This document shows, piece after piece, positions 8,168 to 55,462 of a DNA stretch of 64,000 nucleotides. The position numbers and the translations under genes are program-made. Each line of letters opens with the position of its first letter. The first letter of the stretch is position 1. The stretch covers positions 62,001 to 126,000 of the forward strand of contig JACPEP010000042.1 of the NCBI GenBank assembly GCA_016183425.1. Reading direction: 5' to 3'. Under the pieces are notes generated by a model, which ran no database searches, was not told the origin of the DNA, and saw only the letters and a program-made list of their open reading frames with translations. This DNA is from Chloroflexota bacterium (GTDB lineage: Bacteria > Chloroflexota > Dehalococcoidia > JACPEP01).

Positions 8168-8295
8168 AGCTCCCTCCTTAGCCTGCACAAAGTGCTCTGC
8201 TGCCCAGGATGGTAACGGAAAGGAACCGAACCTGTCAATGACCTATTCTTCGTGCCACTTGCTTGCTTTTTTCTGACCTTTTCCTCAAAAACCCC

Positions 8296-8327
8296 TTGAC
8301 AAACGCTATGGGGGGGGGGGGTATAAT
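8296..8327 (+). promoter_or_regulatory. Promoter with 12-nt poly-G spacer (cassette 1)
   Basis: TTGACA (8296-8301) and TATAAT (8322-8327) are perfect consensus boxes separated by 20 bp, of which the last 12 (8310-8321) are an uninterrupted G run. The copy at 54630-54660 has 13 G and a 19-bp spacer. Both spacers exceed the optimal 17 bp, so slippage in the G tract could switch promoter strength, as in known phase-variable promoters of other bacteria. Confidence 0.75.
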
Positions 8328-8359
8328 GGGCCTATCACAACAGAGGAACCGAGGGGAAA

Positions 8360-8596
8360 TTGGCTAGACCCAGGCTGAAGAGCACGGAGAGAAGAGAGGC
8401 GCTAAGAAAGTCCCAAACGGTGCCTGTCCCACCCCTAAATGTGAGCTGTCTGGTTGTGGCGAAGGCGGACCTGGTGGCGGCGTTGCGGATTTATGTTCCC
8501 CAGTTGGCTGATATAATCTCTTTGGATGGCGAGCGTTTCCTGCTCAGCCTAGCGGAGGGCGAACCCAGGGGAGACGAGAACAGGAGGGCACCATGA
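8360..8596 (+). CDS. 78-aa cassette leader protein, unknown family (copy 1)
   Basis: 78 aa from a TTG, preceded by GAGGGGAAA. The N-terminus ARPRLKSTERR is basic; a central segment reads KADLVAALRIYVPQLADI; the tail is acidic/basic. A paralogue of exactly the same length occupies 54362-54598 at the start of cassette 2, with an identical first 11 residues after the start and clear similarity over PPLN...KADLVAAL.IYVP..AD. The stop overlaps the next start (ATGA) in both copies, implying translational coupling to the fibre gene. No signal peptide. It could be a chaperone or export/attachment factor for the downstream protein; that is inference from position only. Confidence 0.7.
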   Translation: MARPRLKSTERREALRKSQTVPVPPLNVSCLVVAKADLVAALRIYVPQLADIISLDGERFLLSLAEGEPRGDENRRAP

Positions 8597-9003
8597 CGGA
8601 CTGTATCTGTAACAATTTCCCTGCTGGACTAGGTAATGTTACTTTTGGCGCCTCTGTTGGCATCGGGATGAGTCCATCGCCAGGGCCAAGTGAAAGGTTG
8701 CAAGTTGCGGGAGGGAATATATTAGTAGGCCAGGGCTATGGATTTTACATTGGTGATGCCGGTCATGGAATTAGGACTACGCCTGGCAATCCCAACAGGG
8801 TGGACATTATAAACTACAACTGGGGTTCACCGGGAAATAGCTACTGGAGATTCGTTGATAGTGATGGAAATGTAAAGTCGTTATCGACACTTACGATGGG
8901 AGAACGGGCATTGGCACCACCAATCCCCAGGCCAAGCTCCATGTGGCGGGAGACGCTAAGCTGGATGGTGCCCTGGCTCAGATCTATGGTCGACCCAACG
9001 TAG
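8593..9003 (+). CDS. Tail-fibre-like protein, N-terminal part (frameshifted from the next gene)
   Basis: The first ~93 residues are a beta-structured fibre-like segment with the motif SVGIGMSPSPGPSERLQVAG, resembling the VGIGT..P...L.V repeats of phage tail fibres and bacterial S74-type surface proteins. After about 8865-8885 this frame turns into unrelated sequence, whereas the -1 frame continues the fibre pattern (TYDGRTGIGTTNP...LHVAGD). One missing base, for example in the GGAAAT run near 8866-8871, would explain it. So this and the following gene were or are one protein of about 680 aa. Confidence 0.6.
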   Translation: MTDCICNNFPAGLGNVTFGASVGIGMSPSPGPSERLQVAGGNILVGQGYGFYIGDAGHGIRTTPGNPNRVDIINYNWGSPGNSYWRFVDSDGNVKSLSTLTMGERALAPPIPRPSSMWRETLSWMVPWLRSMVDPT

Positions 9004-10640
9004 GTATCGCCTCAAACGACCCCAACGATGACCTGATCTTCAACTACAATGGAGCAGCGCTGTGGAAAAAAGGCGCCCAGGGCGGCGGCGCCCAGGTGGG
9101 TGGCGACCAACTGATGAAGCTGGATACCGATGGCAGCCTCTGGATGGGCAGCACGCCGCGCAAGGTCATTGATGATGGCCGGCTACGCCCTCTACGGTTA
9201 GACCCAGGGCTGACAGAATCTCCACGGAGGGACATAATGGCTACCCAGTGGACAAACCCCGTTGGGCCGGGCAGCCGAATTCTCGTCTTTGACGTTACCG
9301 AGCTGCGGAACGCTATTGATTGCAGCCGGTCAGCTTATGGTGCTCCACCCTATAGTTGGACTGACCCAACCCTTACCCCTGAGCAGACACGCATCAAAGC
9401 GGTGCATCTCACCGAGATGAGAACAGCCATTCAAGAGTTGTGGAATCAAAAGGCCATGGGAACGCTTCCAGCGTGGACAGGCGGCACGCCTACTACGGGA
9501 GGCCGGATATTAGCCAGCCACCTTACCGATCTGCGAACCTGGCTGAACCAGTACGAGACCAACACTACCGGCGCCGTCTACAACCCGCTTCGAGGGCTGC
9601 ACCTGCGAAACGCGGCAGATATGCGCCCGGCCGATGTGACGGCGGCCAGAACTTTTGCCCCCAAGATGGTGGTGGTTTTGAGCAGCGACGTTTTGCGTCC
9701 GGGGACGCTGAACTACTTAAAGGAACTTAAAGCAGGAGACCCCAGCGTTGAGATATTCGTCCGCTATTGGCCCACCACCTACCCACCCCTCACCTACACC
9801 ACCTTTGAGGGCTACAACTCATGGCAATCCATATATGGGGGTGGCGCTGCCGTCGAGAGGGCGGGCGATGTGGTGGCTCAGGATATTGTTGACCTTTACG
9901 ATTCCCTGCTCAGCAACGGGCTGCAAGTGACTCGTTTCTATCCTGGAAATGAGCCCGAGACAGAGTGGCTTAGCCCGCAGAACTCTGACTATACTTGGGG
10001 AGCCCATACGTGGGAAGACATCAAGTACTACTACCGGGACGTCTACTACTGGTTGCGTCAAAAGAAGGGAACTCGTCCCATCGAGCTCTACCCACCAGCG
10101 TTTGCCCAGTTCTCGTTTCTCGGGAAGTCGAATTATTGGCCGGATGGTACAACAAAACCAAAGACCCTCGACGACGGCACTGTTGGCGCAGATCACGTTC
10201 GCGACGTGATTGAGTACTACACTAACGATTCCCCTGACGTAGGCCGGGTGAACTGGCACAGCTACTTCTGGCCGGGCCGCCAGGCAGAACAGTCGGCTTA
10301 CAACTTTATGCCTCAATGGCTAAAGGATGACATAAACGCTGGGTACCCGGCGCGAATCACTGAGTTTGGGTGGCATCCCGATTGTTTTGACCCCCCACCT
10401 GGGTGTAACGCCAATCTGGATACCACTACCAGTCCCTGCGGTGGTACTCCCAAGTCGCTTACGTCTTGGGGTGATTATAATGATTTTGTGCGGAACCGCT
10501 CTGGCGCGGGAGGCGCCGCGGTATGGTTACTGTCTTCGCCAACTCAGGATTGGTGGCCGTGGTGCGCTTTTGTGAGTGATGGCACCGAAATGCGCCTCTG
10601 GTTCAGGCACTACGTCTGTTTCCTCAATGCCAACATTTGA
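8943..10640 (+). CDS. Fibre-repeat protein with GH-A-type glycosidase domain (continuation of the frameshifted gene)
   Basis: 565 aa from the GTG shown; homology starts upstream, near 8865. Residues 1-75 continue the fibre module. Residues 111-201 hold three 38-residue-period repeats (RILVFDVTELRNAI, RIKAVHLTEMRTAI, RILASHLTDLRTWL). Residues ~215-565 look like a (beta/alpha)8 glycoside hydrolase: candidate acid/base Glu337 in YPGNEPE and nucleophile Glu474 in ARITEFGW, the clan GH-A pattern. No signal peptide is seen. The next gene overlaps by 14 bp. Exact GH family and substrate are unknown. Confidence 0.65.
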   Translation: MAGDAKLDGALAQIYGRPNVGIASNDPNDDLIFNYNGAALWKKGAQGGGAQVGGDQLMKLDTDGSLWMGSTPRKVIDDGRLRPLRLDPGLTESPRRDIMATQWTNPVGPGSRILVFDVTELRNAIDCSRSAYGAPPYSWTDPTLTPEQTRIKAVHLTEMRTAIQELWNQKAMGTLPAWTGGTPTTGGRILASHLTDLRTWLNQYETNTTGAVYNPLRGLHLRNAADMRPADVTAARTFAPKMVVVLSSDVLRPGTLNYLKELKAGDPSVEIFVRYWPTTYPPLTYTTFEGYNSWQSIYGGGAAVERAGDVVAQDIVDLYDSLLSNGLQVTRFYPGNEPETEWLSPQNSDYTWGAHTWEDIKYYYRDVYYWLRQKKGTRPIELYPPAFAQFSFLGKSNYWPDGTTKPKTLDDGTVGADHVRDVIEYYTNDSPDVGRVNWHSYFWPGRQAEQSAYNFMPQWLKDDINAGYPARITEFGWHPDCFDPPPGCNANLDTTTSPCGGTPKSLTSWGDYNDFVRNRSGAGGAAVWLLSSPTQDWWPWCAFVSDGTEMRLWFRHYVCFLNANI

Positions 10641-11748
10641 GCAAGTCCTCAACGGCTACAGCAAAAGTGTGCATTGCATCTTGGCAGTTATGCTGCTAGT
10701 TCTGCTTCCCTTAACGGTAGCTTCGCCTTCGTTGTCCGCGGCACAGGACACACTGATAGTTAGCGGCTTTGTGTGGTACGACGACAACTTAAATGGTATT
10801 CCTGATGGGGGAGAAGAGCTTGCCGCCGCCACGGTGAAGGTTTTCTCAGGCACATATGGCAGCCAAGGGCGTCAGCCGCACGTGGTAACGACAACGAGTA
10901 GTGGCACTGATGGTAGATATACCGTCGCTTTTTCCAGACCCAGCGAAACCCCGATCTTCCTGGAGGCCAGGGCCATCAGGCCCGGTTTTCCTACCCGGTC
11001 CGAGCTAGACTACAACTATATCGTAACCACGCGTGCTCTGGATTTCTCCCGGACTGCTACGCTCAGCGTTAACCTTGGCCTCCGCCCCGGCTTTCCCTTC
11101 TATCCTCGTCCCCTCGATTATCCCATTCCCAACGGTCACTTCTTTACCCAGATGGTCTACCCCCAGAGGGGCCCGGGCTACTCCATCACCGATGACGCCG
11201 TCGCCCCCTTCTGGTCGGAGTTTCAGCACCTGGGAGAGGTTCCTTTGCTGGGCTACCCGGCATCCCGCCGCTTCCTCTGGGGCGGCTTCGTCTCTCAGGT
11301 GATGCAGAGGCAGGTCTTCCAGTGGCGGCCCGAGGCGGGCCAGGTCTACTTCGTCAACGTCTTCGATGAGCTATCCCGGGCGGGCAAAGACCCCTGGCTG
11401 CTGGCCTTCCGCCAGGTGCCTCCCCCCTTCGATACCTCCACTGATAAGGGGCTTCCCTGGGAGGAGGTGGTGGGGCGCCATCTGGCCTTATTAGATGCCG
11501 ACCCAGCCATCAAGGCCCGCTACTTCGCCGACCCCGATCCCATAGCCCACTTCGGCCTCCCCATGAGCTACGGGGACTTCGGCAACGTCTTCGTAATACG
11601 GGGCCAGCGGGCGGTGCTCCAGCACTGGAAGGTAGAGACTCCCTGGGCCCATGCGGGAGACGTGACCATCGCCAACGGGGGAGACATTGCCATCGAGGCG
11701 GGGCTGATCCCCCCTCCGGCCACCCTCCCCGAGCCGCCACCTGGCTAG
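10627..11748 (+). CDS. Secreted SdrD-B-like protein with Chloroflexota-type C-terminal surface domain
   Basis: 373 aa from the ATG at 10627, which overlaps the preceding stop; an alternative GTG at 10576 adds 17 residues. A signal peptide (CILAVMLLVLLPLTVASP) is followed by a prealbumin/SdrD B-type beta-sandwich (SGFVWYDDNLNGIPDGGEE...DGRYTVAFS). The C-terminal ~220 residues (from GHFFTQMVY through LGYPASRRF, MQRQVFQWRPE and ANGGDIAIEAGL) match a domain I recall from many Chloroflexota secreted proteins, of unknown function. The last 93 bp, beyond the stop, recur at the end of cassette 2, so this gene appears to be the conserved 3' component of the cassette. Confidence 0.72.
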   Translation: MPTFEQVLNGYSKSVHCILAVMLLVLLPLTVASPSLSAAQDTLIVSGFVWYDDNLNGIPDGGEELAAATVKVFSGTYGSQGRQPHVVTTTSSGTDGRYTVAFSRPSETPIFLEARAIRPGFPTRSELDYNYIVTTRALDFSRTATLSVNLGLRPGFPFYPRPLDYPIPNGHFFTQMVYPQRGPGYSITDDAVAPFWSEFQHLGEVPLLGYPASRRFLWGGFVSQVMQRQVFQWRPEAGQVYFVNVFDELSRAGKDPWLLAFRQVPPPFDTSTDKGLPWEEVVGRHLALLDADPAIKARYFADPDPIAHFGLPMSYGDFGNVFVIRGQRAVLQHWKVETPWAHAGDVTIANGGDIAIEAGLIPPPATLPEPPPG

Positions 11749-11773
11749 CCTGGGGTCTGTTCCCCTGCGGGGA

Positions 11774-13204: not shown

Positions 13205-13345
13205 CGTTTAGCAACGCTTTTTCGACCAACCCCCTGGCCCCCTTCCTGGCCAGGAAGGGGGTGGTGATGTATCTGGGGGACACCCCCAGACCCCCGTCAA
13301 GGGGAGCTTCGCCCCCTTGCAACCCTCATTATTAAACAGTCTCTT
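13205..13345 (-). repeat. Dispersed intergenic repeat, GGGGCGAAGC type (copy 1)
   Basis: On the minus strand: TGTTTAATAATGAGGG, then a GGGGGCGAAGCTCCCC hairpin, then GACGGGGGTCTGGGGGTGTC, then a 24-bp palindrome. The same series occurs at 40866-41015 and, degenerate, at 57075-57160; the 3' half is also at 40319-40420. All copies lie between genes. Confidence 0.7.
13238..13261. terminator. 24-bp perfect palindrome, possible terminator of the Kef gene
   Basis: CCCCCTTCCTGG (13238-13249) is followed directly by its exact reverse complement (13250-13261). It lies about 120 bp beyond the stop of the minus-strand antiporter gene. There is no clean U-run, so intrinsic termination is uncertain; it is also part of the dispersed repeat. 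Confidence 0.4.
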
Positions 13346-31809: not shown

Positions 31810-33648
31810 TTATTGAGCCAGGCTCTGAACAAAGGCGATTATCGCCCGCATTTCGGTGTCAGTGAGACTGAAGGGAGGCATAATGCCGCTCCCCTTGCTC
31901 ACCGCAGATTGGATGACGTCGGCTTCGTGCCAGTGGGTCAGCCGGGGTCCAATTCCCCCTTCGCCAGCGGGGCCATGACAGGCCGCGCAGCCCTTGCTGG
32001 TGAAAAGGGCGCTTCCTTGAGCCACCAGAGCGGCATCCAGAGATGGTCGAGCCGTAACGGGAGGCATGGCAGGCATACCCGGCATCTCCGGCGCTGCGGG
32101 CATCGCCGCTGGAGGCATGACGGGCGGCGCCGCCGGTCGACGGGGTTCGATGGACTCGTAGAACTCGTGGGTCAGGTCGTGGAAAGCCTCGGAGACCTTA
32201 GTAATCGCCCCCTGGGTGGCCGCCAGGTCCTGGGCCCTGAGTCCCTTTTCCACACCATGGATAGCTTCTTCCAGCTCGCCGATGGGGTGCTTCATCTCCT
32301 TAGGCCAGTCCACGTGGCCGAAGAGAGCCTCCAGGCGGTCCACCTTCTCCAGGCCGATGCGCCGCCCCGAGTCCTGCCCCTTGGCCCAGTTGGCCACCTG
32401 ATCTCGAAGGTCGTTGACGTTGCCCCAGATGTCCTGATAGGTGACGTGGACGACGGCGTGGGCTTTCATGCCCCGCCGCCCGGCTATCCACCTGTCGTAG
32501 AAGTCGTGGGTGAGGCTGTGGGAGGCCTCGGAAACCTTTGCCAGGGCTGCTTGAGTGGCCGCCACATCCTTAGCTTGGAGACCCTCCTTCACTGCCCCCA
32601 GGGCCTCCTTAAGCTCCACCACCGAGCCCACCATGATCCCCGGCCAGACAATGTGGGGTATCACCCAGCCCATGCGATCCACCTTTTCCAACGAGATGCG
32701 CCGCCCCAGATCGTCCCCCGCGGCCCAGTTGGCCACCTGGGTTCGAAGATCGGCGATGTTAGCAGAAATATCTACATAGCCGATATGGGGCATCACGTGG
32801 CCCACCACGCCTTGAGTCCCGGCCACCCAGTCGTCATAAAAGGCATGGGTCAGGTCATGAAAGGCATTGCTCACCTTCTGCAGGGCTGCTTGAGTGGCCG
32901 CCACGTTCTGAGCCTTGAGACCATCCTCCACCGGATGGAGCCCTTCGTGCATCCCCGTGGCTGCCATGTCCAGCTTGGCGGTGGGCCAGGGCACATGGTG
33001 GAGAGTAGCCTCTAAACGCTCTATCTTCTCCAGAGCGATGCGCCGTCCTGAATCCTGTCCCTGGGCCCAGTTGGCCACCTGATCCCGAAGGTCGTTAAAG
33101 TTGCGCCAGGTGCCGTAGTACTCGATATGAATCAGGCCCCGTTTTTCCTCCGCGTCGGATATAATGGTTGCCGGAGGCGTCATGGGGTTTTGCATCACCA
33201 GGGGATCCGATACGGCGTTGCCACCCCGCCACTGCGTCCAGGCGTAGGCGGAGACAGTTCCGTGAGGATGGTCAGGGTTCCATGGGTCAACTTGTACCAC
33301 GACGACAAAGGGGCCTTCCGATGCTCCCGCCGCGACGCTATCATGGTACCACGACACATCTCGGCCATCAAAGGTGCCCCGGTTAACATTGGGGACTCCC
33401 GCCCAGGTTTCCACCAGTTTGGTTGCGTGAGGTACTCTAAACCTCAGATCTATGGCTTGTACCTTGCCATCGCTCTTGTTCTGGAGCCAGATAAGGTAGG
33501 TAATCTGGTCGCCCTTAACCTTCGCCGTCACCTTCGGCTGAAGGGGAGGCCACACCTCGTGGGCCGAGATACGGCTTGCGATGCCGCCGATGCTTGTCAT
33601 GATGAAGAGTAATATGCCGATGACAAGCGCCCTTCTTTTCACTGACAT
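31810..33648 (-). CDS. Exported c-type cytochrome with three ~113-aa internal repeats
   Basis: 612 aa. A signal/anchor (RRALVIGILLFIMTSIGG) is followed by a beta-rich domain (about 35-155). Three tandem repeats start at residues 174, 288 and 401; each opens H-x-x-Y, continues with DLRxQVANWAxGxDxGRRIxLEK and closes with HxLTHxFYD. They are predicted helical bundles with conserved His. A Pro/Met/Ala-rich linker (500-530) leads to a cytochrome c domain with CAACH at 554-558 and a probable axial Met in GIMPPFS (~590). It probably carries electrons at the outer face of the membrane. I recognise no family for the repeats. Start follows AAAGGGGGGAAATC. Confidence 0.8.
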   Translation of the reverse strand: MSVKRRALVIGILLFIMTSIGGIASRISAHEVWPPLQPKVTAKVKGDQITYLIWLQNKSDGKVQAIDLRFRVPHATKLVETWAGVPNVNRGTFDGRDVSWYHDSVAAGASEGPFVVVVQVDPWNPDHPHGTVSAYAWTQWRGGNAVSDPLVMQNPMTPPATIISDAEEKRGLIHIEYYGTWRNFNDLRDQVANWAQGQDSGRRIALEKIERLEATLHHVPWPTAKLDMAATGMHEGLHPVEDGLKAQNVAATQAALQKVSNAFHDLTHAFYDDWVAGTQGVVGHVMPHIGYVDISANIADLRTQVANWAAGDDLGRRISLEKVDRMGWVIPHIVWPGIMVGSVVELKEALGAVKEGLQAKDVAATQAALAKVSEASHSLTHDFYDRWIAGRRGMKAHAVVHVTYQDIWGNVNDLRDQVANWAKGQDSGRRIGLEKVDRLEALFGHVDWPKEMKHPIGELEEAIHGVEKGLRAQDLAATQGAITKVSEAFHDLTHEFYESIEPRRPAAPPVMPPAAMPAAPEMPGMPAMPPVTARPSLDAALVAQGSALFTSKGCAACHGPAGEGGIGPRLTHWHEADVIQSAVSKGSGIMPPFSLTDTEMRAIIAFVQSLAQ

Positions 33649-40865: not shown

Positions 40866-41015
40866 TGGAGATTGTTTAATAACGGGGGTTACAAGGGGCG
40901 AAGCCCCCTTTGACGGGGGTCTGGGGGTGTCCCCTAGATCCTCCGAATCTCCCCCTCTCCCGCTACCCAGCGGGAGAGGGGGACCAAGGGGGTGAGGGCT
41001 TAGAGCGCATTTTCA
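40866..41015 (+). repeat. Dispersed intergenic repeat with 14-bp hairpin
   Basis: TGTTTAATAACGGGGG, GGGGCGAAGCCCC, GACGGGGGTCTGGGGGTGTC, then a hairpin CCCCCTCTCCCGCT (40951-40964)/AGCGGGAGAGGGGG (40969-40982) with a 4-nt loop, and GTGAGGGCTTAGAGC. Reads like the inverted copy at 13205-13345. The rest of 40831-41138 holds a short GATTCT/AGAATC inverted repeat (about 41051-41086) and no gene. Confidence 0.7.
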
Positions 41016-48884: not shown

Positions 48885-48917
48885 TCAGGCGAAACTACGA
48901 AAGGAGGACTGACTGCC

Positions 48918-49007
48918 ATGACCCTTATCCTGAACAACGACGAGATCCAGCAGATGCTCACCATGGACACCTGCCTCTATGTATCGGAGGACATAAAATC
49001 GGTATAA
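48918..49007 (+). pseudogene. Truncated 5' copy of the ornithine-cyclodeaminase-like gene
   Basis: 29 codons (MTLILNNDEIQQMLTMDTCL...) aligned without gaps to the first ~27 codons of the intact gene at 49709, at roughly 75% DNA identity, then a stop. It keeps a good ribosome-binding site (AAAGGAGG). A DUF4258/YgiT gene pair lies between fragment and intact copy. Confidence 0.75.
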
Positions 49008-49091: not shown

Positions 49092-49418
49092 TTGGAAAAG
49101 ACGCTGCTTGAGGGAATCCAGGCCGGGGTTAAAAAGAGAGATTACCGTTTCACACTTCATGCCGGGGATCGCATGACGGAAGGGCACATTTCTGTGAGAG
49201 AGACTGAGGAAGCCCTCTTGAGCAGTGATGCAGAGATGATAGAGGATTATCCCGAAGACCGCCGCGGCCTCAGTTGTCTTATTTTGGGCATAACTGGAGG
49301 CCGTCGGCCATTGCATATACAATGCACCTATCCACCCAATGTGGTGGTTATAACCGCCTACGAGCCGAAGGCTGAGGAGTGGATAGACTGGAAGGTAAGG
49401 AAGGGGGGCAAAGGATGA
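49092..49418 (+). CDS. DUF4258-domain protein, probable toxin
   Basis: 108 aa from a TTG preceded by GGAGG. The DUF4258 pattern is visible: FTLHAGDRMTEGHISVRETEEAL, then CLILGI...RPLHIQCTYPPNVVVITAYEP. These small proteins are related to BrnT/RelE-type folds and occur next to YgiT-like zinc-finger genes. Its stop overlaps the start of the next gene (ATGA), the normal layout of a toxin-antitoxin pair with toxin first. Activity is inferred from family and context only. Confidence 0.85.
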   Translation: MEKTLLEGIQAGVKKRDYRFTLHAGDRMTEGHISVRETEEALLSSDAEMIEDYPEDRRGLSCLILGITGGRRPLHIQCTYPPNVVVITAYEPKAEEWIDWKVRKGGKG

Positions 49419-49651
49419 AAAGGTGTCCATTATGTGGTGGTGAGCTAGAGGAGAGGACGATTACTCACCCCCAGGAGTATAAGGAGAGAATCATCATTCT
49501 GGAGAATGTGCCTGCGGAAGTATGTCGCCAGTGTGGTGAGGTGCTGCTGCGCCCCGATGTCCTCGAGAGGGTGCAGGAAGTGGTGTGGTCTGATACGGCA
49601 CCCAAGCGCATGACCTCCGTGCCTGTTTATGACCTGGCAGAGGTAGGTTAG
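49415..49651 (+). CDS. YgiT-type zinc-finger protein, probable antitoxin
   Basis: 78 aa from the ATG at 49415. N-terminal CPLCGGELEE and CRQCGEVLL form the paired CxxC zinc knuckle of YgiT/MqsA N-terminal domains; the C-terminus (RVQEVVWSDTAPKRMTSVPVYDLAEVG) is short and lacks an Xre-type helix-turn-helix, so DNA binding is uncertain. Paired with the upstream DUF4258 gene. The pair lies between a truncated and an intact copy of the ornithine-cyclodeaminase-like gene. Confidence 0.88.
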   Translation: MKRCPLCGGELEERTITHPQEYKERIIILENVPAEVCRQCGEVLLRPDVLERVQEVVWSDTAPKRMTSVPVYDLAEVG

Positions 49652-49708
49652 AACCAAGGGAACACATAACGTAATCTGGCTGAAACTGTTAGAGGAGGCC
49701 TAATCGTC

Positions 49709-50791
49709 ATGACCCTTATCCTGAACAACGAAGAGATCGAAAAAGTGCTTACCATGGACACCTGCCTTCAAGTGCTGGAGGATATGTATCGGGAGCTGGG
49801 CACCGATCGAGCCATTAACATCCCCCGCTCCGACCTCATCGTCCCTTCGGATCACCCCGATCGCGTCCACGCCTTCAAGACCATGAGCGGCGGCGTGCCC
49901 AAAATAGGGGTCACCGCTCTGCGCCTTAACTCCGACATCGTTAACTGGCCGGAGCGCCAGGGAACGCGGCGCCGAGAAAAGGTGCCCGCGGCACCAGGGG
50001 GCAAATGGCTGGGGCTCATCCTCCTCTTCAGCAACCAGAACGGCGAGCTTCTCTCCATCTTCCCCGATGGTATTGTGCAGCGAATGCGGGTGGGGGCCAC
50101 CAACGGCCTGGGGGCCAAGTACCTGGCCCGCAAGGATGCCGCCACCGTCGGCCTCCTGGGGTCAGGGTGGCAGGCGGGGACCCAGCTCATGGCCTTTTGC
50201 GGCGTGCGCCAGATTCGCCTCATCAAAGTCTTCAGCCCCAACCCCGACCACCGCCAGGCCTTCGCCCGGGAGATGAACGAAACATTGGGGGTGCCCGTCC
50301 GCCCCGTAGACAGCGCCGAGGAGGCGGTGAAGGATGTGGACATCCTGGCCGCCGCCACCAACGCCATCCGACCCGTGATAAGGCCGGAGTGGCTGGCTCC
50401 GGGAATCCATGTCAGCGCCATCAAACGGCAGGAGGTGGACGAGACTATCTTCCAGGGCTGCCACCCTATTTTCTTCCACACCACGGAGTATCTGGGCGAG
50501 GCGAACTATGCCCTCAAAGAGGTAGAACCTCGCATCCCCGAAATCCACGGGGGCTGGTGGCAGGAGCCGGAAAAGATAATGGCCCGGTGGGAGATTCACG
50601 ACCTCAAAGAGCTGGTCACGGGAAGGCTCCTCGGCCGCACCGATGACGGGCAGACCACCTGCTTTCTCAACAACATCGGGATGGGCGTCCAGTTCGCCGC
50701 TGTGGGAGCCAGGGTCTATCAACTGGCCCGAGAGAAGGGCCTGGGGCGGGAGATAGACACCGACTGGTTTCTGCAAACGGTACACCCCTAG
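49709..50791 (+). CDS. Ornithine cyclodeaminase/mu-crystallin family protein
   Basis: 360 aa, about 30 longer than usual because of an insertion near residues 70-95 (NWPERQGTRRREKVPAAPGGKW). NAD-binding Rossmann loop GLLGSGWQAGTQLMAF; RMRVGATNGLGAKYLA and FPDGIVQ are typical. Family members reduce or deaminate imino or amino acids. AGAGGAGG precedes the ATG. It is the last gene of the catabolic cluster; the truncated copy at 48918 shows that this gene's start was duplicated. Confidence 0.88.
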   Translation: MTLILNNEEIEKVLTMDTCLQVLEDMYRELGTDRAINIPRSDLIVPSDHPDRVHAFKTMSGGVPKIGVTALRLNSDIVNWPERQGTRRREKVPAAPGGKWLGLILLFSNQNGELLSIFPDGIVQRMRVGATNGLGAKYLARKDAATVGLLGSGWQAGTQLMAFCGVRQIRLIKVFSPNPDHRQAFAREMNETLGVPVRPVDSAEEAVKDVDILAAATNAIRPVIRPEWLAPGIHVSAIKRQEVDETIFQGCHPIFFHTTEYLGEANYALKEVEPRIPEIHGGWWQEPEKIMARWEIHDLKELVTGRLLGRTDDGQTTCFLNNIGMGVQFAAVGARVYQLAREKGLGREIDTDWFLQTVHP

Positions 50792-50796
50792 AAGCC

Positions 50797-50901
50797 ATGA
50801 TGGACCTAGCCCTCGTTCAGGAGGTCAACGACCTCTTTTCGCCCTTCTACCCCTATGTGGCCCGCCAGATCGCCCACGCCTACGGGCGAGAAGAGGGCCA
50901 G
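50797..50901 (+). pseudogene. Truncated 5' copy of the class I methyltransferase gene
   Basis: 35 codons encoding LVQEVNDLFSPFYPYVARQI and onward to REEGQ, matching the start of the intact methyltransferase at 54842 (about 85-90% DNA identity). The reading frame then enters inverted cassette-2 sequence at the shared CCAG (50898-50901) and is meaningless thereafter. Confidence 0.8.
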
Positions 50902-50990
50902 ACTAGCCAGGTGGTGGCTCGGGGAGGGTGGCCGGAGGGGGGATCAACCCCGCCTCGATGGCGATGTCTCCCCCGTTGGCGATGGTCACG
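50898..50990 (-). pseudogene. Relic of the SdrD-B/surface-domain gene (3' end only)
   Basis: 93 bp matching 11661-11753 in inverse orientation with about five mismatches; on the minus strand it reads VTIANGGDIAIEAGLIPPP and on to the stop. The upstream ~1 kb of the cassette-1 gene is absent. It begins 20 bp beyond the glycosidase stop. Confidence 0.8.
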
Positions 50991-51010
50991 CGGACCGCCA
51001 TACGCCATTG

Positions 51011-51961
51011 TTACGGAGCTTTCAAAGCCGCCCGAACTTGCACGAAAGGTGCCATCTCCTGGAAACGGTAAAAGGCCTGGCGCGGATTCAAGTTCTCATC
51101 GCACAGACCAAAGTTTGCGAAGGGAACATCTGCGATGGTATTGTAAGCGGCCATCAGGATCCACGGACGATTAAAGCGGAGCTTCCCCAGAGCATCCTGA
51201 ATCCGTGCCGCCTGCGTCGCCTCGTCCATATCCTCTGGAACTTTCCAACTACCATACTCGGTGACCCAAATCAGCTTATTTTCATCACCGTTGGCCTCCA
51301 TGTTAGCCCGAAGATTGTCCAGACCGGTGGCATCCAAAGGATTGCTTTTGGGATCCGGGTAAGGGTGAACCGCCACGGCATCATAGTATGGCTGTCCCCC
51401 ATTAGCTCGAATATCGTCTAGGTAGCCCGTATCTGCCCCATCGAGGCCCCCAATGGATACCACGGCGTTCGGATTGCCCACCTTTACGCCTTGATAGCAG
51501 CGCTGGAGCCACTTGGTATACTCCGCTGGGTCTCGGGTATGCCATCCGTTTGCATTCTCCTCATTCCAATACTCCCAGTATTTGATCCGGCCCAGGAAGT
51601 GCGCCGCCACCTCAGCGCAAGCATCGATAAAAGCCTGAGCGTACTGTTCGTCGGGAGGCCACTGGTAATTATTGTCCGCCCCTGGTGGCAAGGCCCAGTT
51701 TGGTGTGGTAGCAATTTGCCCAATGACCTCAAAACCATGGACAATAGAGATATCCACCGCCTCGTCATAGGTGACACCAATATCTGGGTTTATGGCGCTC
51801 CAATTGTATTGCCCCACGCCGGTCCAGATGTGTACGAGGTCAATACCGTCTCTGGTACTGGTGCAGTGGGCCTCCTTCATCTTGTCCGCCTGAGCTTGAC
51901 GAGAAGCGCCTGGAGTAATAGGCTTCCCGTAGTCCATCCCGAAGATCAAATGGCCTGGCAC
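51011..51961 (-). CDS. GH-A-like glycoside hydrolase, GH39/GH5-like
   Basis: 316 aa (beta/alpha)8-barrel. Candidate acid/base Glu134 in KYWEYWNEEN and nucleophile Glu235 in WVTEYGSW are the clan GH-A pattern; YYDAVAVHPYPDP also fits. GTG start with AAAGGAGGGTGAA upstream. No signal peptide, although it lies between exported-protein genes. The cassette-1 protein has the corresponding domain fused to a fibre segment. Substrate unknown. Confidence 0.75.
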   Translation of the reverse strand: MPGHLIFGMDYGKPITPGASRQAQADKMKEAHCTSTRDGIDLVHIWTGVGQYNWSAINPDIGVTYDEAVDISIVHGFEVIGQIATTPNWALPPGADNNYQWPPDEQYAQAFIDACAEVAAHFLGRIKYWEYWNEENANGWHTRDPAEYTKWLQRCYQGVKVGNPNAVVSIGGLDGADTGYLDDIRANGGQPYYDAVAVHPYPDPKSNPLDATGLDNLRANMEANGDENKLIWVTEYGSWKVPEDMDEATQAARIQDALGKLRFNRPWILMAAYNTIADVPFANFGLCDENLNPRQAFYRFQEMAPFVQVRAALKAP

Positions 51962-51996
51962 TTCACCCTCCTTTCCGCTAAATAAACGTTGAATTC

Positions 51997-52914
51997 CTAC
52001 GAAGGCAGAAACTCCAGCCGAAAGCGTGCACTAAGAACCTTTACCCCCGGGTAAAGATAATCACCTCTTCCCCAAAAAAAGATGAAATAGCGCCCGGGCA
52101 TGATCGTCCATTGATACTCAGTGGCCGGAGGATCCCAGTGTTTGGCTAGACAGGGGAAAAAAGCCGTAGCCTCGGGATAAACTCTCTCACAAGGGTCCGG
52201 GCCAACATAGTGATATTCATACTCTTGCCTGGGCAGGATATCTTCATAGTGTTTATAGAGTTGAATACGCCAAAGGTTAACGTCTTCCGGGGCCGAATAT
52301 TCTACTGCACCTGGTTCTCTTTTCTGGATCCGAACATTTTCCAAGGTTATCTTCAGAACTCGCCCCTCCCATTCGTCTGGAAAGTAAAGACGATAAAACA
52401 GACCAGTGACAGTGGCCAAAGGACTGCCTTGAAGTATTATCCAGTCTTCCTGACCGACCTCAAAGGTGCCGGCTTTGGGCAAAGGAAAGGGGGGGGTAGC
52501 CGTGGGAGGAACTGGCGTAAAGGTAGGAACAGGCGTGGCAGTAGGGGGTACAGGCGTTGGTTCTGGTGGCGCAGGGGTGGCGGTGGGCAAGGGCGTCGGT
52601 GTGTCCGTGGGCGTAGCAGCGAAGGTTGGCGTCGGTCTCGGGGTTTGGGTAAAGGTAGAGGTGGCAGTGGGAGTTGCGGTTGTGGTAGGAGTGGGGGTAG
52701 AGGTGGAAGTTGCTTTCGGGGTTGGGGTTAGGGTGGAAGCGGAAGTAGGAGACGCCGTGAACCTAGGAATAGGAGCAGGGGTTGTGGTGTGAGTGGCCGT
52801 AGGCAGTGGGGTACTGGTGACTACCACCGGCGTGGGAGTGTGAGCGGTGCTGCCAACACAACCCGCGGCCAGTAGGAACGCGAGAGCCATGAGCAACCAC
52901 TTCACCACCCACAC
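51997..52914 (-). CDS. Lipoprotein with long Thr/Pro-rich stalk
   Basis: 305 aa. Lipobox LLAAGC at residues 14-19 after a short signal peptide (VVKWLLMALAF) predicts lipidation at Cys19. Residues 20-150 are a low-complexity TPT/TPV stalk with a 4-10-residue period, probably spanning the cell envelope and likely glycosylated. Residues 150-305 form a globular C-terminal domain rich in aromatic residues (FYRLYFPDEWEGRVLKITLE; YIQWT-like), resembling pre-peptidase/carbohydrate-binding folds. The antisense strand is open but is only a shadow of the repeats. Confidence 0.75.
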   Translation of the reverse strand: MWVVKWLLMALAFLLAAGCVGSTAHTPTPVVVTSTPLPTATHTTTPAPIPRFTASPTSASTLTPTPKATSTSTPTPTTTATPTATSTFTQTPRPTPTFAATPTDTPTPLPTATPAPPEPTPVPPTATPVPTFTPVPPTATPPFPLPKAGTFEVGQEDWIILQGSPLATVTGLFYRLYFPDEWEGRVLKITLENVRIQKREPGAVEYSAPEDVNLWRIQLYKHYEDILPRQEYEYHYVGPDPCERVYPEATAFFPCLAKHWDPPATEYQWTIMPGRYFIFFWGRGDYLYPGVKVLSARFRLEFLPS

Positions 52915-52922
52915 CCCCCGGG

Positions 52923-54365
52923 CTAGGCCCAGGCTACTACCTTCGCCTGGCCGCTAGTTACCCAGTCATTACCAGCATCGTTTAAGCCAATCTTGTTTCG
53001 AACTACCACCTGCAAAGCAGTAGAGGTGATGGCCCGCACGTAAGCCCCGTACTCCGTCGGCTGTTCACCCCACAGGAAGGCCTCGAGAACCATGAAATGA
53101 GATGATGCCGACGACGCTCGGAAAAAGAGCTGAATGAGATTGGGGACAACGCCTAATGTGTGTGTCAGATTGTAAGTGCCTAACGCTGCTACATCAAACC
53201 AGCCGCTGTCCCAAACTTTGATGTTGTTGGCGGCGGTAAGGTTCCCAGGTATTGTCAGGTTGCCGCTGGCGTCCATGGACATCACCTCAGTATAGGCCGC
53301 TTGCTTGTTGAACACTTTGAACCTGGCATTGGCCCCCGAAAATACCACCTCGGCCTGGCCGGGCGCCGTAGCGTGGAACAGGCCATAGGCATTGAAATAG
53401 GCGCCGCCATCAATGCTATCCCCACCCAGAAGGGCCAGAGCCTGAGCGCCATCGGGGCGCTTCAGGTAAGTGCTGCCAACGATCAGATCGCCGTCGAGCC
53501 TCACGTCCCCTGCTACATGGAGCTTGGCCTGGGGATTGGTGATACCAACGCCGACGTAGCCGCCTGATGTAACTCTTAGAACTTCCCCAGAAATTCCATA
53601 AACTTCCAGTGGATTTGAAGGCTCACCCACACTTGAATCACCTACCCTTAGACCGGTATCGATGGAGAGTTTTCCAGTAGCGCCGCCCGAGCCGTAAATC
53701 CTCATGACCAAATTTGAATCGGAAACGATATCCAGTGAACCTGTCCCGATTCCTATGTCGGCAGTTAATCCGCCAGGGTGAGTTAATCGCAGTTGAGGAT
53801 AAGCCTTATTGATTGTCAGGGGTAATCCCGGCGACGTTGTTCCAATGCCGACCTTTCCGCCGATGTAGACATCCCCCGCGAAATACCCCGACCAGTTCAC
53901 GACGCCGCCGCTGGGGGCCTCGGCGTAGACGCCGTAATGCTCATCTCCTCCTATGGGGGCAGCGGCATAAAGGCTGTAGTTCTTGGCTCCTACTGCCCCA
54001 CTCCTGGCTCGTCCCCACACGCCGTAGGCCTGCATGCCGTTGATAGCTTCCCCATGAACACCATAAGCGCCGTAGTTGCCCTGGCTCACGCCCCGGACAC
54101 CAACAGTATTGAAGTAGTTTCCGCGGCCCTCGCCGTAGACCCCCACCGACCACTGGGTCGCCGAACCTGATGGAGTCTCCGCTACACCATAGACACCATA
54201 AGCGGTGGCAACACCGGAAGGCTGGCGATAGCCGTAGAGGGCCGCCTGGCCCGAGGGTGGCACCCCGCCCACAGACAGGTGGGCCGTAGACGCCGGCGGC
54301 GAGGTTCCCTGCTTGAACCAGCTTTGGCCGCTGACCACCAGGTCATCATCTATCAGGTACGTCAT
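52923..54365 (-). CDS. Tail-fibre-like repeat protein
   Basis: 480 aa. Residues 1-165 are rich in YGVYG/VGVYGE/AYGVWGRA repeats (beta-solenoid or trimeric-fibre type). Two VGIGTT..P/VGVGITNPQAKLHVAGD repeats at ~172 and ~275 are typical of phage tail-fibre and S74-protein shafts. The C-terminal ~95 residues (GWFDVAALGTYNLTHTLG to the end) look like a receptor-binding tip domain. No signal peptide. Its ATG overlaps the upstream 78-aa gene (ATGA). No other phage structural gene is nearby. The NPQAKLHVAGD motif is nearly identical in cassette 1. Confidence 0.7.
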   Translation of the reverse strand: MTYLIDDDLVVSGQSWFKQGTSPPASTAHLSVGGVPPSGQAALYGYRQPSGVATAYGVYGVAETPSGSATQWSVGVYGEGRGNYFNTVGVRGVSQGNYGAYGVHGEAINGMQAYGVWGRARSGAVGAKNYSLYAAAPIGGDEHYGVYAEAPSGGVVNWSGYFAGDVYIGGKVGIGTTSPGLPLTINKAYPQLRLTHPGGLTADIGIGTGSLDIVSDSNLVMRIYGSGGATGKLSIDTGLRVGDSSVGEPSNPLEVYGISGEVLRVTSGGYVGVGITNPQAKLHVAGDVRLDGDLIVGSTYLKRPDGAQALALLGGDSIDGGAYFNAYGLFHATAPGQAEVVFSGANARFKVFNKQAAYTEVMSMDASGNLTIPGNLTAANNIKVWDSGWFDVAALGTYNLTHTLGVVPNLIQLFFRASSASSHFMVLEAFLWGEQPTEYGAYVRAITSTALQVVVRNKIGLNDAGNDWVTSGQAKVVAWA

Positions 54366-54598
54366 GTTGCGCCTCCCTCTCGGTTCTCCTGGGGGCCGAA
54401 GACCAGGTAGAAGTGTTCTCCGTCCTCGAAGGCCTGCACATCGGCGACGTTGGGGACGTATATCTTTAGGGCCGCCACCAGATCCGCCTTGTTTATCACC
54501 ACCCCGGAGAGGTTGAGGGGTGGGATAGGGACTACCTGGCGCTCCGCCTCTCTTGTCGCCACTCTTCTCTCCGTGCTCTTCAGCCTGGGTCTAGCCAA
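54362..54598 (-). CDS. 78-aa cassette leader protein, unknown family (copy 2)
   Basis: 78 aa from a TTG at 54598 preceded by GAGGGGAAA; an ATG at 54631 overlaps the -10 box and cannot be used on the main transcript. Same length, same start type and same first 11 residues as the protein at 8360-8596; the rest shares PPLN, KADLVAAL.IYVP and AD positions. No membrane segment or recognised motif. Overlaps the fibre gene by 4 nt. Confidence 0.7.
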   Translation of the reverse strand: MARPRLKSTERRVATREAERQVVPIPPLNLSGVVINKADLVAALKIYVPNVADVQAFEDGEHFYLVFGPQENREGGAT

Positions 54599-54629
54599 TT
54601 TCCCCTCGGTTCCTCTGTTGTGATGGCCC

Positions 54630-54660
54630 ATTATACCCCCCCCCCCCCAGCATTTGTCAA
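54630..54660 (-). promoter_or_regulatory. Promoter with 13-nt poly-G spacer (cassette 2)
   Basis: On the minus strand TTGACA (54660-54655) and TATAAT (54635-54630) with a 19-bp spacer that ends in 13 G (54648-54636 as C on the plus strand). The 65-75 bp downstream of the -10 are almost identical to cassette 1 (one indel in the first ~75 bp), although the coding regions that follow have diverged. Confidence 0.75.
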
Positions 54661-54841
54661 GGGGTTTTGTCGAAGACTCGACTCTGGCGAGGGGAAAATG
54701 TCAGAAAAATACCAATGACTTATTCCCTTGAATTTATCACACCTCTGCCCCATCCTTCTGGACAAGGAAGGGGGGTGGTGGTATATTGGGGCCCACAGAT
54801 TAGTGACCTGGTCAATTTGAGAACGCTGGTGGCCCACACTG

Positions 54842-55462
54842 ATGGAAGCCATGACGGACCTTATTCAGGAGGTCAACGACCTCTTTTTGCCCTTCTACCC
54901 CTATGTCGCCCGCCAGATCGCCCACGCCTACGGGATGCAAGAGGGCCAGGCCCTGGAGGTAGGACCCTACGCCCCGGGCATATCCATCCAGCTTGCCTCT
55001 CTCTGCCCTGAGTTGGAGATAACGGTGGGGGACGACTTCCCGGGCATCCTGAGCTACTTCAGAGAGCAGATTGAAGCGGCCTCCCTTGCCCACCGCATCC
55101 AGGTGAGGGAGGTGGACAAGAGGAACCTCCCCTTCGGCGACGATACCCTTGATCTGGTTTACTTTCGAGGCGCCCTCTTCTTCTGGGAGGAGCAGGAGAG
55201 GATTCTCAAAGAGGCCTATCGGGTGCTGAAGAGGGGTGGGGTAGCGGTGATGGGGGGCGGCTTCGGCGCCGAGGCTCCCGACGCTCTTATCAACTCCCAC
55301 CTCCCCCGCTCCCGGGAACTAAACCGACGCCTCCAAAAAAAGGTGCTCTCCTTGGAGGAGTTGGAGGCTATTCTCTCTCGCGCTTCCCTTGCCCCCCACG
55401 CCTTCATCGACCACCGGCACGGCCTGTGGGTTGTGCTAAGAAAGCCGCCTACTCCGCGATGA
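54842..55462 (+). CDS. Class I SAM-dependent methyltransferase
   Basis: 206 aa. SAM motif I is unusual: EVGPYAPGISIQLA (in place of ExGxGxG), followed by the acidic EITVGDDFPG, motif NLPFGDDTLDLVYFRG and AYRVLKRGGVAVMGGG. It resembles small Methyltransf_11/25 enzymes. Met1 or Met4 (54851) could be the start; the truncated copy at 50797 is only compatible with the latter. Convergent with the next MFS gene (14-bp overlap). Substrate unknown. Confidence 0.85.
   Translation: MEAMTDLIQEVNDLFLPFYPYVARQIAHAYGMQEGQALEVGPYAPGISIQLASLCPELEITVGDDFPGILSYFREQIEAASLAHRIQVREVDKRNLPFGDDTLDLVYFRGALFFWEEQERILKEAYRVLKRGGVAVMGGGFGAEAPDALINSHLPRSRELNRRLQKKVLSLEELEAILSRASLAPHAFIDHRHGLWVVLRKPPTPR

Follow-up and report, generated by a model that had tools for sequence, protein, structure and literature searches.

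Two related operons with conserved ends and different cargo in a Dehalococcoidia genome, possible members of a dispersed Chloroflexota family of surface-protein operons

Two Related Operons in One Window

We analyzed a window of 64,000 nucleotides (nt; G000:C17:62001-126000) from the 2.7-Mb, 95% complete genome of a Chloroflexota bacterium of the class Dehalococcoidia. The window carries two related, oppositely oriented gene cassettes, here called copy 1 and copy 2 (Table 1), in which nearly identical ends enclose different cargo genes. Both begin with a promoter that contains a long G tract, followed by a leader, a gene for a protein of 78 amino acids (aa) and, coupled to it by an ATGA overlap, a gene for a phage-fibre-like protein. 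A first-pass annotation made from the sequence alone had named these shared parts, and all of them are present in both copies. Repeat search and pairwise alignment also bore out the relationship and the opposite orientation of the two loci. Downstream of the fibre gene, a glycosidase gene and then a gene for an SdrD_B-type protein follow in copy 1, whereas the order in copy 2 is lipoprotein, then glycosidase. In a whole-genome search, no third occurrence of either conserved end was found in the source genome, which has two copies only. Names of flanking genes, except for the methyltransferase, were read off translations.

Table 1. Coordinates (window numbering) of the two cassettes and an adjoining duplicate
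Feature	Position	Strand	Remarks
Copy 1 cassette	8288-11753	+	Sequence comparison
Copy 1 promoter	8296-8327	+	TTGACA 8296-8301, G12 8310-8321, TATAAT 8322-8327
Copy 1 78-aa gene	8360-8596	+	TTG start after GAGGGG; stop and fibre start overlap in ATGA
Copy 1 fibre-like gene	8593-9201	+	Family-type end DDG-GYALYG, then stop, at 9201
Copy 1 connector and glycosidase-like head	9237-10640	+	PGNEP and RITE motifs
Copy 1 signal-peptide protein	10630-11748	+	SdrD_B-like domain (weak) and C-terminal domain
Copy 1 conserved 3' end	11661-11753	+	Last codons of the SdrD_B-type gene, stop and 5 nt
Copy 2 cassette	50898-54668	-	Sequence comparison
Copy 2 promoter	54630-54660	-	TTGACA 54660-54655, G13 54648-54636, TATAAT 54635-54630
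Copy 2 78-aa gene	54362-54598	-	TTG start at 54598
Copy 2 fibre-like gene	52923-54365	-	480 aa, intact; ATGA overlap with 78-aa gene
Copy 2 Thr/Pro-rich protein, predicted lipoprotein	51997-52914	-	LAAGC lipobox-like start; no Pfam family
Copy 2 glycosidase, clan GH-A (GH5/GH39-like)	51011-51961	-	Pfam and PDB match
Copy 2 3' end, non-coding remnant of copy-1-type last gene	50898-50990	-	
Truncated duplicate of methyltransferase 5' end	50797-50901	+	Abuts copy 2 end; intact gene at 54842-55462

The repeat search returned three inverted pairs, at 8309-8410/54548-54649 (102 nt, 88%), 11661-11753/50898-50990 (93 nt, 96%) and 8907-8975/53484-53552 (69 nt, 80%). Pairwise alignment extended the upstream near-identity from AAAACCCCTTGACA through the leader to codons 12-13 of the 78-aa gene, a stretch of about 113 nt with one substitution, an AT/G change at the start of the G tract and one 1-nt indel. 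In a base-by-base alignment, identity falls sharply after these codons, inside the 78-aa gene; at the protein level, the products of this gene in the two copies share 60% identity. Between the ends, only a 62-69-nt piece of the fibre genes can be aligned as DNA, the rest being far more diverged or unrelated. Chance similarity of the ends is excluded by the BLAST E-values (1e-49 for the 5' end, 3e-38 for the 3' end).

The downstream ends, as had been noted, share their final 93 bp. Missed at that point was that this piece is coding in copy 1 and a non-coding scrap in copy 2, where it lies downstream of the glycosidase stop, outside any gene, with the same codons as the end of the last copy 1 gene. 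All three in-frame differences between the two versions are synonymous. The copy 2 fragment therefore diverged while it was still coding, and the ancestor of copy 2 had a last gene of the copy 1 type. Besides this remnant, the only match to the C-terminal domain of that gene in the source genome is copy 1 itself. Judged from this alignment, copy 2 is a pair of copy-1-type ends around other cargo that has kept the end of a lost gene, and the remnant is the clearest single sign of cargo replacement.

Proteins Encoded by the Two Copies

The fibre and glycosidase domains had been described as fused in copy 1 and separate in copy 2. The fusion is probably a frameshift artefact, because the copy 1 fibre gene contains two compensating frame changes (read from the sequence near 8895 and 9180), ends in the terminus typical of the family, and is followed by a glycosidase gene with its own ribosome-binding site (GGAGGG) and ATG at 9237. 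The broken fibre gene may be a pseudogene, contain a true frameshift or reflect an assembly error. The copy 2 fibre matches a PHROG tail fibre (E = 1e-5).

A GH-A-type glycosidase common to both copies, as first annotated, turned out to be two different proteins. The copy 2 enzyme passes two Pfam cut-offs (PF00150, 28.1 bits against 23.5; PF11790, 26.3 bits against 21) and matches PDB entry 5jvk (E = 1e-6). The copy 1 protein starts with a connector of three helical HxELR-type repeats (residues 1-114); its head has no match in Pfam or PDB, and an AlphaFold model built from only three sequences has a predicted local distance difference test score (pLDDT) below 50. The conserved PGNEP and RITE motifs, which contain the NEP and TE motifs of clan GH-A, are suggestive of a GH-A-like head.

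As read from the sequence, the start resembles a signal peptide in the last gene of copy 1 and a lipobox in the Thr/Pro-rich protein of copy 2. The SdrD_B match in the former (E = 0.003) is below the Pfam cut-off. Its C-terminal domain of about 207 aa is widespread in Chloroflexota: it was found in 10 of the 11 genomes that carry a 78-aa gene, with up to 12 copies each and varied N-terminal parts, and it is possibly an undescribed sorting or anchoring domain of secreted proteins in this phylum.

The 78-aa protein could not be identified from Pfam, NCBIfam, PHROG, PDB or fold searches. Its predicted structure is a confident helix plus beta-hairpin for which no structural relative was found. The protein may be an assembly or export partner.

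Poly-G Promoters

The promoters of copies 1 and 2 have perfect -35 and -10 boxes and read TTGACA-N8-G12-TATAAT (spacer 20) and TTGACA-N6-G13-TATAAT (spacer 19), and they are the only two matches to the exact pattern in the source genome, which has six tracts of at least ten G. Promoters of the TTGACA/poly-G/TATAAT type were found in 4 of 400 phylum genomes; a reversed control gave zero. The signature alone is not specific, since an unrelated oxidoreductase-like gene follows a poly-G promoter in G211 (C47), and a short open reading frame and ABC transporter genes follow one in G289. Of three further poly-G promoters in the phylum, two stand before genes for signal-peptide proteins or lipoproteins.

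Similar promoters are known from other phyla. In porA of Neisseria meningitidis, a poly-G tract lies between the -35 and -10 boxes and expression varies (PMC3639595). The tprE, G and J promoters of Treponema pallidum are permissive only if the tract does not exceed eight G, and the promoter of tp0126 in the same species works best at 17-nt spacing (PMC7864442). The tp0126 tract, like that of porA and those in the window, lies between the two boxes. Both porA and tp0126 encode surface proteins, as the cassettes probably do, and the tpr genes occur in several paralogous copies. The proteins are unrelated, however, the cassette promoter drives a multi-gene operon, and its spacers of 19-20 nt are longer than the 17-nt optimum cited for porA and tp0126. 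By analogy, the G12 and G13 tracts suggest phase variation. Tract lengths do differ between the two paralogues (12 versus 13), which as to variation is only suggestive.

A third long tract, G14 at G000:C17:133753-133766, lies about 8 kb to the right of the window, after a TTGACA and with a poor -10 box. It is upstream of a gene for a secreted multidomain protein of about 1850 aa with M23-peptidase-like, LamG-like and dockerin-like parts (identified by eye), a possible third poly-G-controlled surface gene in the neighborhood. Elsewhere in the class, two genomes each have a poly-G promoter ahead of a gene for a lipoprotein-like or signal-peptide protein that has no relation to the 78-aa operon (L108 in G082, L109 in G271), and more surface proteins of this class may be under poly-G control.

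Related Units in Other Genomes

The 78-aa gene appears to mark a family spread over the Chloroflexota phylum and not just a local feature with two copies. We found homologues in 5 of 100 relatives and in 8 of 400 phylum genomes, the weakest of them (G044, E = 0.009) being doubtful; none of the comparison genomes is closer to the source genome than class level. Where sequence suffices, the usual order is 78-aa gene, fibre-like gene, effector. The effector consists of a repeat connector and a glycosidase-like or unidentified head in G117, G262, G111 and G158, is a GH-A glycosidase after a secreted protein in G142, as in copy 2, and is an RHS protein in G007, G211 and G020, the last without a fibre gene. 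A connector of about 110 aa is common to the glycosidase-like and RHS proteins and the heads differ, so that a constant part is combined with a variable effector. G tracts are G11 in G073, G8 in G262 and G158, and of the G6 type in copies a, g and h of G117, with spacers of about 14-21 nt.

Genome G117 is the richest source of comparisons, with nine copies of the unit. Its copies e and f agree in 98% of 963 bp at the 5' end and in 90% of 681 bp at the 3' end. Their middles of about 2.4 kb cannot be aligned as DNA, and the glycosidases encoded there have 36% protein identity. Units that keep their ends but differ in cargo thus exist outside the source genome, as a search of relatives for the 78-aa gene, proposed in the first-pass annotation, was meant to reveal. 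Copies b, d and i match at 96% over at least 430 bp up to AAACCCCTTGACAA, with unrelated flanks beyond, and their sharp 5' edge sits at the promoter. The contigs that carry these copies stop there, and C5 and C17 of the same genome start inside a matching 3' end, as expected if a near-identical middle had collapsed in assembly. To the right of copy a lies what remains of another glycosidase gene (84% identity over 102 bp), and a similar short leftover can be read after copy g. For such gene scraps, the orphan modules of Rhs loci offer a comparison (PMC3967940).

In G073, three units start at a G11 promoter, two of them on contigs whose end lies some 95 bp past this promoter; contig breaks conceal the middles of several G117 and G073 copies. 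In three genomes the 5' edge recurs sharply, a few bases ahead of the -35 box. At the level of DNA comparison, these data show whole units at unrelated sites with their 5' edge at the promoter, and pairs with nearly identical ends and very different middles.

Proposed Cargo Exchange and Alternative Explanations

We consider copies 1 and 2 to belong to a Chloroflexota family, not described before, of dispersed modular operons for surface proteins with cargo exchange, and assign this reading a probability of about 0.6. A cassette would comprise a promoter, often with a G tract in its spacer, the 78-aa gene, the phage-fibre-like gene, a variable effector and a signal-peptide protein that in several copies ends in the shared C-terminal domain. 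The effector would often be a repeat connector with a glycosidase-like head, and in some relatives part of an RHS protein. Cargo would be replaced through homologous recombination that uses the promoter/78-aa end together with a patch farther downstream and at times leaves part of the former gene behind, and whole units would also reach new chromosomal sites by a further route. Together, the products would form a surface-displayed fibre with a glycan-acting head, and slippage in the G12/G13 tracts would change the spacing of the -35 and -10 boxes and thereby vary expression between cells. The combination of a fibre, a glycan-acting head and a partner that bears a lipid or a signal peptide is suggestive of display at the surface, with a role in adhesion, glycan remodelling or competition.

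Several observations weigh against this reading. The cargo of copy 1 resembles that of G262 (last gene 46% identical over 379 aa) and the cargo of copy 2 that of G142 (glycosidase 50%, fibre end 31%). Because such similar cargo sets occur in distant genomes, part of the difference between the copies is old divergence between operon types. The idea of exchangeable cassettes is supported by copies e and f of G117, by the units at unrelated sites and by the copy 2 remnant, although it does not cover the whole cargo difference; the swap by recombination at the conserved ends we infer. Exchange was not caught between strains, relatives having been compared at class level or beyond. We searched for a site free of copy 2 via the neighboring methyltransferase in 294 class genomes; the best match, 55% identical, has no recognisable gene beside it and is uninformative. 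Homologues in G142, G111, G007 and G218 have no G tract, the promoter spacer in G117 copies b, d and i is an ordinary one of 17 nt, and variation in tract length and expression is a prediction from promoter sequence. Finally, the fibres and glycosidases of the window copies carry no recognisable signal peptide, and their surface display is likewise a prediction.

The like gene sets of copy 1 and G262, and of copy 2 and G142, would also fit simple ancient paralogous operons whose leader and end stayed alike through functional constraint or local gene conversion, without any exchange of cargo. We regard this as unlikely, since the near-identity breaks off abruptly within the 78-aa gene, the conserved 3' end of copy 2 is a non-coding scrap of another cargo gene, and the G117 groups e/f and b/d/i show recent copying and mosaicism. 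Less likely still is a non-autonomous mobile element served by a recombinase in trans, in which the conserved ends would be recognition ends and not chance patches of homology. The sharp 5' edge in three genomes and the whole, nearly identical units with unrelated flanks speak for such an element. Nevertheless, neither terminal inverted repeats nor target-site duplications were found above chance in six copies, the 3' ends differ between groups of copies, and no transposase gene was recognised among the open reading frames of either unit, nor was a recombinase found.

The fibre gene could alternatively mark a degraded phage module, left from a prophage, a tailocin or a phage tail. Besides the PHROG tail fibres, the fibre matches endosialidase-chaperone proteins of two Synechococcus phages (30% identity), with which it shares the repeat type VGIGTxNPxAKLHVxGD. 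The cassette is chromosomal, however, and no other phage genes were recognised beside either copy. The sheath gene PF04984, which tests for contractile tails only, was found in 0 of 11 carrier genomes and in 3 of 14 control genomes, and homologues of the 78-aa protein were absent from collections of phages, plasmids and viral contigs. We therefore consider such a remnant highly improbable.

A bolder version of the preferred reading, cargo exchange in a dispersed operon family, is doubtful at present. The unit would be a mobile, phase-variable surface-effector cassette that begins at its own poly-G promoter, copies itself to further places in the chromosome and exchanges its effector head. The 78-aa protein would serve specifically in the export or assembly of a surface appendage that derives from phage fibres and is known so far from Chloroflexota only.

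Among known systems, the cassettes also resemble Rhs and contact-dependent inhibition (CDI) polymorphic toxin loci, which likewise have a conserved start, a variable effector end and fragments of old effectors downstream, and some cassette relatives have RHS proteins in the same operon. In contrast to such loci, the cassettes lack an immunity gene (no extra gene follows the effector genes in either copy), the effectors in the window are glycosidase-like, the 78-aa and fibre genes come in addition, and there is no known secretion system.

Most knowledge of phase variation and of cargo swapping in surface proteins comes from pathogens that face an immune system. If uncultured environmental Chloroflexota use this design too, the pressure would seem to come from phages, grazers or competitors. 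The 78-aa marker gene and the promoter signature offer handles for finding such loci, and tract-length variation and cargo exchange could be tested directly in existing metagenome reads.

Surroundings of Copy 2 and Other Repeats

On one side of copy 2 lies the truncated 5' fragment of the methyltransferase gene, on the other the intact gene. With 91% identity between the duplicated 5' ends, the insertion looks as though it had brought along a divergent copy of its target gene. The arrangement is similar around a toxin-antitoxin-like pair at 49092-49651, which is flanked by a 78%-identical repeat of the 5' end of an ornithine-cyclodeaminase-like gene (48891-48994 and 49682-49785) and raises the question of the same mode of insertion. 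Two further repeats were noted in the window. Three direct repeats of 129 nt, 68-79% identical and spaced by about 340 nt, occupy 32303-33112, and a 45-nt inverted pair that looks intergenic (CCCCCAGACCCCCGTC...; 13271-13315 and 40895-40939) is 93% complementary over a distance of 27.6 kb.

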